This document shows positions 2,837-7,579 of a stretch of 7,579 nucleotides of DNA, in pieces. A program made the position numbers and the translations under genes. The notes under the pieces are model-generated. The model searched no databases, was not told the origin of the DNA, and was given only the letters and a program-made list of their open reading frames with translations. The stretch is from Candidatus Latescibacterota bacterium (GTDB lineage Bacteria; JAAXHH01; JABIQT01), in the NCBI GenBank assembly GCA_018667995.1, contig JABIQT010000465.1, positions 1-7,579 of the forward strand. The letters run 5' to 3'. The number at the start of each line of letters is the position of its first letter. Positions within the stretch are counted from its first letter, which is position 1.

Positions 2837-3958
2837 TCACTCATCCTCCTTTCCTCCAAGGTCATGTCCCAGTATAGCCTGAATAAAATCCCGTATATGT
2901 ATATCAAGGTACTTGTAGGTCTGTTCGTATGCCGCCTGTATCTCTTCCTCTGAACCCTCAACGCGGGAGGGATCATCAATCTCCCACGTAATACTAACCG
3001 TCTTTGCTGTCGGAGGCGGTAGGGCAGCTTCAGCCTCCCGGCAAAGTGAGATCACAGCCTGGTAGCTTTCAATGTTCAATATTTGGTCCGCAAATGTCGG
3101 CACCTGATGTGAAACGTCAATGCCCTTGCCGGCCATGAATTCAACGGTCTTAGGATCGATCCGCTCAACCTTCATCCCAGCACTGGTGAACTGGAATCTC
3201 TCAACGCCAATGGCATTACCGATACCGGCCGCCATCTGGCTTCGACAGGAATCAAGCTCGTCCACAAAGAGAATCCGTATGACTTCCTTGCCTTCATGCT
3301 TCATGCCTTCGCCGGTATATATGTACAACACTTCCTCGCAGATGTTTCCGGCCTGATCACCGACTCGTTCGCAGCGATTAGCCATCGTCATGAGTGGCAC
3401 CAGGGCTGATGAGGGAAGCACTCCCTCGCTGTGTTGCGAGGTCAGGTGAGCCAGTATCGCAGCACGCTGGTGATCCACCACTTTGCTCTTCTCGATGGTC
3501 CTCGTCTCGAGAGCGAGTTTGGCGTCTTGGTCAGCAAAGGACTGAATGGCATTATGGATCATCCTGATAACCATTTCGATCAGCTCAATAAGGCTGTCAA
3601 ATGATGGCTGGGGACCGATGTCACTCAGCGCCAGATACTGCCGCGCTAATGCCTCGGCGTAATCTCCCGTGCGCTCTAGATGACCGTTAATCTTTATCGA
3701 AGAATAGACCAGTCGAAGTTGCGTGGCGGCAGGTTGATGTTTGACGAGAAACTTCAGGCAGAGCCAGTCCAGCTCATTTTCCATCTCGTCGATGTACCCG
3801 TCCTTTAGAATGACGGAGTAGGCAACCCGGCGGTCTTGCTCCTGGATGGCCTTCAAGGCCGATCTCAGAGCGTCTTCCACCATGCCACCCATTCTGATCA
3901 CTTTCTCACGAATCTGATCAATGTCGCGCTGTAGATGCTCTTCGAAATGAGACTGCAT
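2837..3958 (-). CDS. phoU: PhoU phosphate-signalling protein fused to a degenerate ArsC/LMW-phosphatase-like domain
   Basis: The protein has 373 residues, whereas ordinary PhoU has about 220-240. Residues 1 to about 215 form two PhoU helical-bundle repeats, each with the family's metal-binding signature: HLERTGDYAE (93-102) and ANRCERVGDQAGNICEE (193-209). PhoU links the Pst transporter to the PhoR/PhoB system and represses it when phosphate is ample. Residues about 226-365 match thioredoxin-type arsenate reductase ArsC in order: ILFV, SCRSQMA, SAG, GIDVSHQ, VISLC, then W.IDDPSR and EEE. The catalytic loop is altered: Asp233 replaces the nucleophilic Cys and Leu313 replaces one redox Cys. Cys238, Arg239, Cys306 and the Asp329 general-acid position remain. 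An AAGGAG lies 7 bases before the ATG. Identity as PhoU is secure; the role of the C-terminal domain is unknown, and arsenate reduction is unlikely. Confidence 0.94.
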   Translation of the reverse strand: MQSHFEEHLQRDIDQIREKVIRMGGMVEDALRSALKAIQEQDRRVAYSVILKDGYIDEMENELDWLCLKFLVKHQPAATQLRLVYSSIKINGHLERTGDYAEALARQYLALSDIGPQPSFDSLIELIEMVIRMIHNAIQSFADQDAKLALETRTIEKSKVVDHQRAAILAHLTSQHSEGVLPSSALVPLMTMANRCERVGDQAGNICEEVLYIYTGEGMKHEGKEVIRILFVDELDSCRSQMAAGIGNAIGVERFQFTSAGMKVERIDPKTVEFMAGKGIDVSHQVPTFADQILNIESYQAVISLCREAEAALPPPTAKTVSITWEIDDPSRVEGSEEEIQAAYEQTYKYLDIHIRDFIQAILGHDLGGKEDE

Positions 3959-4056: not shown

Positions 4057-4587
4057 TCAGATACAAGCAATTGAGGCGGTATCATGAAGACCGACAAGCG
4101 CCAGATGCTTGTTCTTGTACCGGTGATCTTTGGTAACCTCGGTCCCAAACCAGCGTGGGACCACAAAAGAGGTACTCTCTGTAGTCGATTTGAATTCTAC
4201 TTCGGCGATACGGAGTCCTTCCAGCTCGCCATGGTACACATCGAGCTCTATCGTCAGTCCTTCATATGCTATATCGTAGCGAGCCTTCTCAACCCGCATT
4301 CCGCAGGTAGCGGGCCATAGTGCTGTGAACTGCTCTGGCGTCAATTCTATTTCATATTCCGACCTGACCATATCACCCGGCCCTTTAACTGTCTGGAAAT
4401 ATTGATCGCCCTTTCGACGAAGCCTCACTTCTGTTCCATCATCAGTAATGGCAAGATAGCCCTGCACGATGTGCTCGTACGATTCTCGATCACAATTATC
4501 GGGCAGCGTCTCCACAAGGAACTTACGCTCGATCTCCAGAGACTTGTCCGTCTCTAGCAACTCTCTGCTTCCACCATCCAGAGTCAT
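4057..4587 (-). CDS. CYTH-domain triphosphate tunnel metalloenzyme (probable inorganic tripolyphosphatase)
   Basis: This is a single-domain CYTH (TTM) protein of 176 residues, probably cytoplasmic. TTM enzymes hydrolyse triphosphate groups with a divalent metal inside an eight-stranded barrel. The signature ExExK is present as EIERK (18-22). The barrel's charged ladder follows: RLRRK (55-59), Lys68, Arg75 with EYEIEL (77-82), RVEKARY (98-104), ELDVY (114-118), EVEF (129-132) and RYKNK (156-160). From memory the layout closely resembles the short bacterial TTM protein of Nitrosomonas europaea, which prefers tripolyphosphate, so tripolyphosphatase is the best guess. Class IV adenylate cyclase and thiamine triphosphatase are the alternatives. 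It starts 16 bases after ppk1, with AGGCGG 9 bases before the ATG, and is almost certainly cotranscribed with it. The first 17 residues are outside the domain. Confidence 0.92.
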   Translation of the reverse strand: MTLDGGSRELLETDKSLEIERKFLVETLPDNCDRESYEHIVQGYLAITDDGTEVRLRRKGDQYFQTVKGPGDMVRSEYEIELTPEQFTALWPATCGMRVEKARYDIAYEGLTIELDVYHGELEGLRIAEVEFKSTTESTSFVVPRWFGTEVTKDHRYKNKHLALVGLHDTASIACI

Positions 4588-4603: not shown

Positions 4604-6721
4604 TCAGTCTGCCAATTCCCGGTGCCGTTCCTGAAGCCACGTCTGCGTATCGATGGGATCCGACGTAACCCCTACCGACATCCGCTCATATGTGCCATCG
4701 GGACACAGCGAACGGGATTTTACGTTGTCCGTGAGATAGGCGTTCATGACCTCGTCACGGAGATACCGTATATGCTTTGGCTCCTCGACCGGAAACAACA
4801 GCTCCACGCGCCGATCGATATTCCGCGGCATCAAGTCAGCGCTGCCAAGGTAAATCTCCTCAGTACCGCCATTCAGGAAATAGTAAAATCTGCTGTGCTC
4901 CAAGAAGCGCCCTACAACACTGATCACTCTGATGTTCTCGCTCAATCCCGGAACTCCAGGGCGCAGACAACATATACCGCGTACTATAAGGTCGATCTTC
5001 ACTCCAGACTGGGAGGCCTTGTAGAGTAACTGAATCATCTGTTTGTCGACCAGTGAGTTCATTTTGAAAATCAGATGCCCGGGTTCACCCTTTGTCTGAT
5101 GGTTAATCTCACGGTTGATTAAATCTTCTATTCCGGACCGCAGACTCACGGGCGCCACGAGAACCTTGCGGTAGCTCTTCTTATCGGAGTAGCCAGTAAG
5201 ATAATTCAGAAAATCGGTCGCGTCGGCTCCCACGTCCTCATTGCACGTGAAATACCCAAGATCAGTGTAAAGATGTGCCGTTACGGTGTTATAATTCCCA
5301 GTCGCCATGTGGACGTAGCGCCGAATGCGCTTGCCTTCCTGGCGCACCACCAGGGCAATCTTGGAGTGTGTTTTCAAGCCTAGAAGCCCATATATTACGT
5401 GCACCCCGGCCGTCTCAAGTTTGCGTGCCCACTCAATATTGCTCTCCTCATCGAATCTGGCCTTCAACTCCACGAGCACGCTAACTTGCTTGTCGTTCTC
5501 CCGGGCCTTCAATAACGCCTCGACGATAGGAGAATTGCTACCCACACGATATAATGTCTGCTTGATAGCAAGCACATTGGGATCACGTGCAGCAGCATTC
5601 AGGAATTCGACAACCGGACTGAACGAATCGTAGGGATGATGCAAGAGGATATCCTGTTGCCGGATAGCAGCGAACAGATCCACTTCACCCGCCTGATTGT
5701 TGTTTGCCTTATGGGTCGCGGGTAGAAACGCGGGAAACTTCAGTTCATACCTGTCGATACGATAGAGAGCCGACAGGTCGCTGAACCCTAAAGGATCTTC
5801 CAGGGTGTAGATGTCTTCAGAATTCAGGCGAAGATTTGTAGTCAGGATTTCCCGAACACGCTGCGACATGTCCCGGTTCACAGCCATTCTAACAACCGTC
5901 CCGAAACGCCTCTGGCGGACACCTTCCTCCATGGTTGCCAGCAGGTCATCCGCTTCAAGTTCCTGAATGACCATGTCGGCATTTCTTGTGACCCTGAAGG
6001 GATGCGCCTCGACGATTTCCATCCCTGGAAAGAGCATTTCCAAATGTGCGATGATCAACTGGCCAAGCCAGACGAAATGGTGTTGCCGACGGTTTCCGCC
6101 TGATGTCTTAACAGGGACCAGTCGGGGCAGTGTACCGGGTACTTTGATGCGGGCAAAGCGTTCTTTTCCTGCACTATCACGGATGAGCACTGCAAGATTC
6201 AGACTCAGATTCGATATGTGAGGAAAGGGACGGCCCGGATCGAAGGCAATGGGGGTGAGCACAGGAAATACGAACTCTTGAAAGTACTTATGAAGGCCGT
6301 CAGCCTGCCGCTTGGTAAGGTCTCCATATTCTACAACGTGAATTCCAGAACTCCGAAGCTGCGGCAAAAGATCTTGGTGCCAGCAACTTCGCATATCATG
6401 CATGATTTCCGAGGCTAATTCCCGTATCGCATGTACCTGCTCGGAAGGCGTCAGTCCGTCGGCGGGGATATCTACAACTCCAGCATCCATCTGCTGTCGC
6501 AACCCCGCAACCCTGACCATGTAGAATTCATCCAGGTTCGATCCAACAATGGATAGGAATTTGACACGCTCAAGCAGGGGATTTCCCGGATCCTGCGCCT
6601 CTTCCAGGACACGTCGCTGAAACTCGAGTAGACTGAGTTCTCTATTGATGAAGTTTCCGGGGGCGTTCAGGTCGACTTCTACAGGTTCTGCGGATTGCTC
6701 TATTTTAGGCACGGATTCCAT
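4604..6721 (-). CDS. ppk1: Polyphosphate kinase Ppk1
   Basis: This 705-residue enzyme reversibly transfers the terminal phosphate of ATP to a growing polyphosphate chain. The length is normal for Ppk1 (E. coli 688). The N-terminal domain opens with the family block FINRELSLLEFQRRVLEEA (24-42), then NLDEFYMVRVAGL (62-74). The middle domain has HHPYDSF (361-367) and IKQTLYRVG (386-394). The C-terminal phospholipase-D-like lobes carry both catalytic histidines: His452 in KTHSK, the autophosphorylated residue equivalent to E. coli His435, and His609 in FLEHSRFYYF, equivalent to His592. YLGSADLMPRNIDRRVELLFP (624-644) is also typical. No catalytic residue is missing. The ATG has AAGG 8 bases upstream. 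As first gene of the block behind a PhoB box, it should be induced by phosphate limitation. Confidence 0.98.
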   Translation of the reverse strand: MESVPKIEQSAEPVEVDLNAPGNFINRELSLLEFQRRVLEEAQDPGNPLLERVKFLSIVGSNLDEFYMVRVAGLRQQMDAGVVDIPADGLTPSEQVHAIRELASEIMHDMRSCWHQDLLPQLRSSGIHVVEYGDLTKRQADGLHKYFQEFVFPVLTPIAFDPGRPFPHISNLSLNLAVLIRDSAGKERFARIKVPGTLPRLVPVKTSGGNRRQHHFVWLGQLIIAHLEMLFPGMEIVEAHPFRVTRNADMVIQELEADDLLATMEEGVRQRRFGTVVRMAVNRDMSQRVREILTTNLRLNSEDIYTLEDPLGFSDLSALYRIDRYELKFPAFLPATHKANNNQAGEVDLFAAIRQQDILLHHPYDSFSPVVEFLNAAARDPNVLAIKQTLYRVGSNSPIVEALLKARENDKQVSVLVELKARFDEESNIEWARKLETAGVHVIYGLLGLKTHSKIALVVRQEGKRIRRYVHMATGNYNTVTAHLYTDLGYFTCNEDVGADATDFLNYLTGYSDKKSYRKVLVAPVSLRSGIEDLINREINHQTKGEPGHLIFKMNSLVDKQMIQLLYKASQSGVKIDLIVRGICCLRPGVPGLSENIRVISVVGRFLEHSRFYYFLNGGTEEIYLGSADLMPRNIDRRVELLFPVEEPKHIRYLRDEVMNAYLTDNVKSRSLCPDGTYERMSVGVTSDPIDTQTWLQERHRELAD

Positions 6722-7102: not shown

Positions 7103-7108
7103 GTGCAA

Positions 7109-7579
7109 ATGGCCAGTGAAAAGCCACGCGACGTGTTAGGACAGGATGACAGCTTCATCCAGGTGGAGCCTACAGATGGTTCCATTAATGAAGCGCCGCA
7201 TGTCCTATCGAACATGTCCCGACGAGATTTCATAAAGAGTATTATTGCGACGGGAATCGCCGTTTCATCCACAGGCTATCTTTTGGGCGGGTGCGCAGGA
7301 AGCGATGGTACGCCCGCGCCTGGATCCGTAGAACGTCTGATCTCATTGAACATCAATGGACGGGTCAGACGCGTGGACGTCCTTCCGCAGGAAACGCTAG
7401 CTATGACCCTACGGTATAAACTCGGTCTCACGGGTACAAAACTCGGCTGCGACCGTGGTGAATGTGGAGCATGTACCGTGTTGATAGACGACGTTCCGGC
7501 GTATTCCTGCTCGATCTTAACCCACAGTGCGCGAAGCCGAGAAATAACTTCCATCGAGGGTTTGGCCGGTGAGAGTGGA
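7109..7579 (+). CDS. Tat-exported [2Fe-2S] subunit of a xanthine dehydrogenase/aldehyde oxidoreductase-type enzyme (3' end cut)
   Basis: This is the first 157 residues of the small iron-sulphur subunit of a molybdenum hydroxylase, which passes electrons from the molybdenum cofactor subunit. Residues 37-43 (SRRDFIK) are a near-ideal twin-arginine signal, followed by a hydrophobic stretch ending in LLGGC (Cys62). A Gly/Ser/Pro-rich linker then leads to a plant-type ferredoxin domain from about residue 76. The first cluster has Cys114, Cys119 and Cys122 (CDRGECGAC) and Cys134. The second, helical [2Fe-2S] domain should follow but lies outside. Thirty-six residues precede the twin-arginine motif, longer than usual, but the AGGAGG site supports them. 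The large catalytic subunit probably follows and would be co-exported. The nearest known plan is periplasmic PaoA-like aldehyde oxidoreductase; the substrate cannot be told. No functional link to the phosphate genes is evident. Confidence 0.92.
   Translation, partial: MASEKPRDVLGQDDSFIQVEPTDGSINEAPHVLSNMSRRDFIKSIIATGIAVSSTGYLLGGCAGSDGTPAPGSVERLISLNINGRVRRVDVLPQETLAMTLRYKLGLTGTKLGCDRGECGACTVLIDDVPAYSCSILTHSARSREITSIEGLAGESG

Follow-up and report, generated by a model that had tools for sequence, protein, structure and literature searches.

In Escherichia coli, PhoU contacts PhoR and requires PstSCAB for signalling, and the mechanism by which it signals the state of the Pst transporter to PhoR has been called elusive (PMC4423584). 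How PhoU learns that state and relays it to PhoR is an old open question. The arsenate reductases ArsC of Bacillus subtilis and Staphylococcus aureus use three catalytic cysteines, Cys10, Cys82 and Cys89 (PMC2714181), and the Pst system of Enterococcus faecalis has PstB1 and PstB2 (PMC12096839). Here we describe a natural variant, a conserved PhoU with what appears to be a dead oxyanion enzyme built in, linked to an importer of which one ATP site seems to be impaired; the variant allows the signalling surface and the asymmetry of the ATPases to be tested apart from each other.

The window, that is, the whole stretch of 7,579 nucleotides analysed, carries a phoU::pseudo-arsC fusion gene on its reverse strand (2837-3958), with homologous fusions elsewhere. 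The open frame encodes 373 amino acids and is uninterrupted from start to stop, so that the continuous passage from PhoU into an ArsC-like part described in the first-pass annotation is borne out, as is its description of a complete PhoU with two ERxGD motifs. The PhoU part (residues 1-217; 3308-3958, reverse strand) comprises two PhoU repeats, matched by PF01895 in two stretches (E 1.6e-30; Pfam), and scores 146.5 bits over residues 8-217 with the full-length PhoU equivalog TIGR02135, above the cut-off of 130.25 (NCBIfam); both motifs, ERTGD and ERVGD, are there, at residues 95-99 and 197-201. A linker (residues 218-225; 3284-3307, reverse strand) with low pLDDT at residues 220-223 leads into the C-terminal domain (residues 226-363; 2870-3283, reverse strand), which passes the superfamily profile PF01451 LMWPc (36.3 bits against a cut-off of 23.2, residues 229-356; Pfam) and matches the arsC equivalog TIGR02691 with E 4.8e-21, at 75.4 bits against a cut-off of 174.3. 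An AlphaFold2 model built from five homologues has a mean pLDDT of 82.5. Its PhoU half adopts the six-helix, two-repeat PhoU fold and superposes on 4q25 (Z 30.5, 1.2 Å over 209 residues), and its C-terminal half superposes on B. subtilis ArsC 1jl3 (Z 20.8, 1.7 Å over 137 residues, 226-363), where an LMW-phosphatase fold had been expected at 226-365. Pfam, NCBIfam and AlphaFold agree that the protein is a full PhoU (1-217) joined to a predicted ArsC/LMW-PTP fold (226-363), which annotation based on TIGR02135 would label merely PhoU.

We gathered 36 distinct fused proteins, which span at least five phylum-level groups. G001, a genome from the window's order, has a fusion with 65% identity, and homologous fusions at 45-56% identity are found in MAGs that carry the names Deltaproteobacteria (chromosome record CP070692), Calditrichia and Acidobacteria; a Myxococcales MAG has a fusion fragment at a contig edge. 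Across the phyla reached by one genome scan, in which most genomes are MAGs, the fusion occurs in 2/16 genomes of the window's own phylum, 20/396 of the phylum of the Acidobacteria MAG, 3/40 of that of the Calditrichia MAG and 2/188 of that of the Myxococcales MAG. For the phylum of the Deltaproteobacteria MAG the frequency was 5/198 and later 9/375, the latter counting matches to a C-terminal model within an open frame of at least 370 amino acids; in these 375 genomes a clear gap separates the fusions (E up to 2.7e-31) from standalone ArsCs (from 2.4e-28). No record in a plasmid collection covered 80% of the query, and a literature search, with subscription papers mostly outside its reach, found no paper describing PhoU fused to ArsC or to an LMW-PTP.

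The window comes from a MAG broken into 1165 contigs and is itself a short one, as would suit an assembly artefact that joined two genes, but the same architecture recurs 36 times in separate genomes and independent assemblies, one of them the chromosome record CP070692, with boundary and neighbours constant; we regard assembly error as ruled out, its residual probability being negligible. The survey of fused architectures proposed at first pass yielded a recurrent gene that adjoins pstS wherever its flanks are readable. Quick maximum-likelihood searches placed all fusions on one side of a branch, with SH-aLRT support of 99 for the PhoU half and 81 for the ArsC half, and three subclades (14, 4 and 18 members) are identical in the two trees. 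Because both halves are monophyletic, one fusion event is likely, and the trees are most simply read as a single fusion with joint descent or transfer thereafter.

Residue conservation was read from an alignment of the 36 fusions with 24 standalone ArsCs and B. subtilis ArsC, the last serving as reference, with its residues verified at the positions discussed. The "block by block" likeness to ArsC first claimed for the domain holds for fold and profile but fails exactly at the catalytic residues. In the window, the altered P-loop (residues 233-239; 3242-3262, reverse strand) reads DELDSCR against CTGNSCR in ArsC, Asp233 replaces the nucleophile Cys10 and Leu313 stands at Cys89, so that of the cysteine triad only the counterpart of Cys82, Cys306, is present. 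The same loss extends to the whole family: the Cys10 position is occupied by Asp in 30/36 fusions, by Ser in 6/36 and by Cys in none, against Cys in 23/24 standalone ArsCs, and the CX5R motif of LMW-PTPs thus lacks its nucleophile in 36/36. Cys82 is kept in three fusions and Cys89 in one; the anion-binding Arg16 is kept in 16/36 and lost in 20/36, Asp105 is kept in 18/36, loop residues Asn13 and Ser17 in 27/36 and 28/36, and Trp101 in all 36. Asp10 often precedes an acidic residue, Glu in 18/36. Ser occupies the nucleophile position in a four-member fusion subclade (L053, L054, L194, L195), and a divergent unfused ArsC-like protein (L031, G017:C36:32850-33155), with Ser replacing Cys10, is also without the nucleophile.

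Judged from these residues, the known route of arsenate reduction is closed to the domain, and cysteine-based catalysis is refuted. An active arsenate reductase or phosphatase attached to PhoU would agree with the fold and the overall profile, yet it is extremely improbable with no Cys10, the Cys82/Cys89 relay gone and a score far below the ArsC equivalog cut-off; we warn against annotating the domain for arsenate resistance. Over seven close pairs, dN/dS is 0.10-0.25 in the ArsC-like half against 0.08-0.14 in the PhoU half, so the former is not freely decaying, and by these estimates the pseudo-enzyme is under purifying selection. That it is a decaying relic with a merely structural role, as linker or stabiliser, could draw on the vanished catalytic residues and on a conservation somewhat lower than that of PhoU in most pairs; we consider it unlikely, given that the domain is retained in 36/36 fusions across several phyla at these dN/dS values, with Trp101 invariant and Asp10 at 83%.

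The fusion had initially been proposed to read the oxyanion state. This part of the proposal finds no support, since the arsenate-attacking residue is Asp or Ser in 36/36, Arg16 is lost in 20/36 and the thiol relay is gone. A weaker form, in which non-covalent binding of phosphate or arsenate in the altered pocket would switch PhoU, seems to us rather unlikely: Asn13, Ser17 and position 10 are conserved and a mycobacterial PhoU is reported to respond in vitro to Pi (PMC12301784), but that PhoU has no such domain, an acidic side chain stands in place of the anion-facing thiol in 30/36 and Arg16, a main anion ligand, is kept in just 16/36. The Asp at the Cys10 site, which lies where the first strand ends and often has an acidic residue after it, might alternatively bind Mg2+ or take a phosphoryl group, forming a receiver-like switch, but Ser replaces it in six fusions, including the entire four-member subclade. 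To our knowledge no such cation-binding or phospho-acceptor chemistry has been described for the ArsC/LMW-PTP fold, and we rate this switch as very unlikely.

The genes around the fusion confirm the pst/polyphosphate operon initially recognised. On the reverse strand of the window, the fusion gene is flanked on one side by pstS (1797-2750), encoding a phosphate-binding protein of the TIGR02136 class (223 bits, cut-off 206.6; PF12849), the permease gene pstC (894-1793; PF00528; conserved order) and the permease gene pstA (1-894; PF00528), truncated by the contig end. Upstream of the fusion are genes for a CYTH-domain protein of the polyphosphate/triphosphate family (4057-4587; PF01928) and for the polyphosphate kinase ppk1 (4604-6721; four PP_kinase domains); in G001, ppk1 lies after the pstB pair. 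Divergent from ppk1, the forward strand (7103-7579) encodes the N-terminal portion of a protein that bears a TAT signal and a 2Fe-2S domain, truncated by the contig end and probably unrelated.

Gene order in the other loci was read with tblastn. Two arrangements occur, fusion-pstS-pstC-pstA-pstB-pstB, as in the window, and pstS-fusion-pstC-pstA-pstB-pstB, and among the loci examined no fusion was seen outside pst operons with two unequal pstB genes. The suggestion that the fusion reports to Pst/PhoR is strongly supported in its Pst part, pstS adjoining the fusion gene in 32/32 fused loci with readable flanks (a count that omits the G641 fusion, cut by a contig end, and four later-added fusions). 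Its PhoR/PhoB part is supported by three loci in which phoB and a PhoR-like kinase gene are codirectional with the operon, downstream in L104, upstream in L102 and after a second phoU in L095. In L017 (3516-5674), the fused pst operon is immediately preceded by genes for a PhoU-like DUF47 protein and a PitA-type phosphate transporter.

The two ATPase subunits are asymmetric in 26/26 fused operons with both pstB genes readable. PstB-a combines a Walker A motif GPA(Q/N)SGK(T/S), with minor variants, and the signature LSGGQQQR with an Asn that replaces the switch His (VTNL). In PstB-b the Walker A motif reads GPSGCGK(T/S), the signature is degraded to L(Q/S/A)L(E/D)(Q/E)QQK and the switch His is retained, apart from a Tyr in one case. 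Both have TIGR00972 as their highest-scoring family, although in L016 (9955-11503) PstB-a and PstB-b score 292.7 and 320 bits against a cut-off of 343.2. The window ends within PstA, and the pair of the same genome lies on contig C183 (G000:C183 2167-3665, L187), which ends at the PstB-a start. A 502-aa ORF after this pair (L187 1-1506) appears by eye to combine a Ppx-type HD region with a CHAD (polyphosphate-binding) domain, which would suit the ppk1/CYTH context. In a tree, PstB-b forms one clade with full support, and the PstB-a group requires one extra change; unfused relatives of the same order have a single PstB with His retained.

Some ABC transporters, TM287/288 among them, are heterodimers in which one ATP site is degenerate, and each subunit of an ABC dimer places its Walker/switch side opposite its partner's signature. 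Since the switch side of PstB-a would face the signature of PstB-b, both lesions should share one composite ATP site and leave the other canonical, from which we infer an asymmetric heterodimer in which one ATP site is impaired. Operons that lack the fusion have the pair too (L156-L162, L168; L164-L166), in two genomes with a downstream ordinary PhoU gene, one with an adjacent divergent PhoU gene and eight related genomes with no PhoU gene in the operon and one elsewhere in the genome; the idea that the asymmetry depends on the fusion was dropped. Conserved over phyla, the PstB pair is possibly of equal interest to the fusion.

In five genomes (G000, G001, G063, G175 and G338) no PhoU other than the fusion was detected, and the fusion should therefore serve as PhoU there. 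We propose that the protein acts as PhoU for a divergent Pst phosphate importer with two unequal ATPase subunits, and that its catalytically dead ArsC-fold domain would act by binding, docking PhoU to partners, most likely the PstB-a/PstB-b heterodimer and possibly PhoR, thereby setting how transporter activity passes to PhoR/PhoB. To this reading, a non-catalytic docking or regulatory module appended to the PhoU of a Pst system with asymmetric ATPases, we assign about an even chance; the docking surface and the signalling to PhoR are what we infer. What speaks for it is that the nucleophile and the redox cysteines have been lost across the family, that both halves share a single probable origin and are under purifying selection, and that the gene is constantly linked to the two-PstB pst operon; recurrence in several phyla within this unusual operon suggests that the domain was kept for regulation, not chemistry. 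Against it, a pure docking surface would not need the Asp10 found in 83% of fusions, which hints at use of the pocket; the asymmetric pair also exists without the fusion, so the pseudo-domain is not required for it; and some genomes encode an ordinary PhoU in addition. The Asp-for-Cys pocket might conceivably be a repurposed ligand or phosphoryl site, giving a PhoU-borne phosphate-state sensor coupled directly to the asymmetric PstB heterodimer; we hold this to be rather unlikely, but if true, Pst signalling in these systems would work differently from that in E. coli.

Like other PhoU proteins (TIGR02135; 4q25, 1t72, 1sum), the fusion is full-length, with both repeats and the ERxGD motifs, scores above the equivalog cut-off and lies in a pst operon, but it has an extra C-terminal domain of 140 residues, and its gene stands before or just after pstS, whereas E. 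coli phoU is last in its operon. With thioredoxin-coupled ArsC (TIGR02691; B. subtilis 1jl3, S. aureus pI258 1ljl) the added domain shares its fold, a recognisable sequence, the loop Asn and Ser and the Trp; it differs in the replacement of Cys10 by Asp or Ser, the loss of Cys82 and Cys89, the frequent loss of Arg16, the junction to PhoU and the pst context. Two adjacent pstB genes within one pst operon are shared with E. faecalis PstB1/PstB2 (PMC12096839), but here PstB-a is without the switch His and PstB-b without the LSGGQ signature. As in heterodimers of the TM287/288 type, the lesions of both subunits would fall in one composite site, but in this case in a Pst-family importer whose heterodimer is predicted from sequence.
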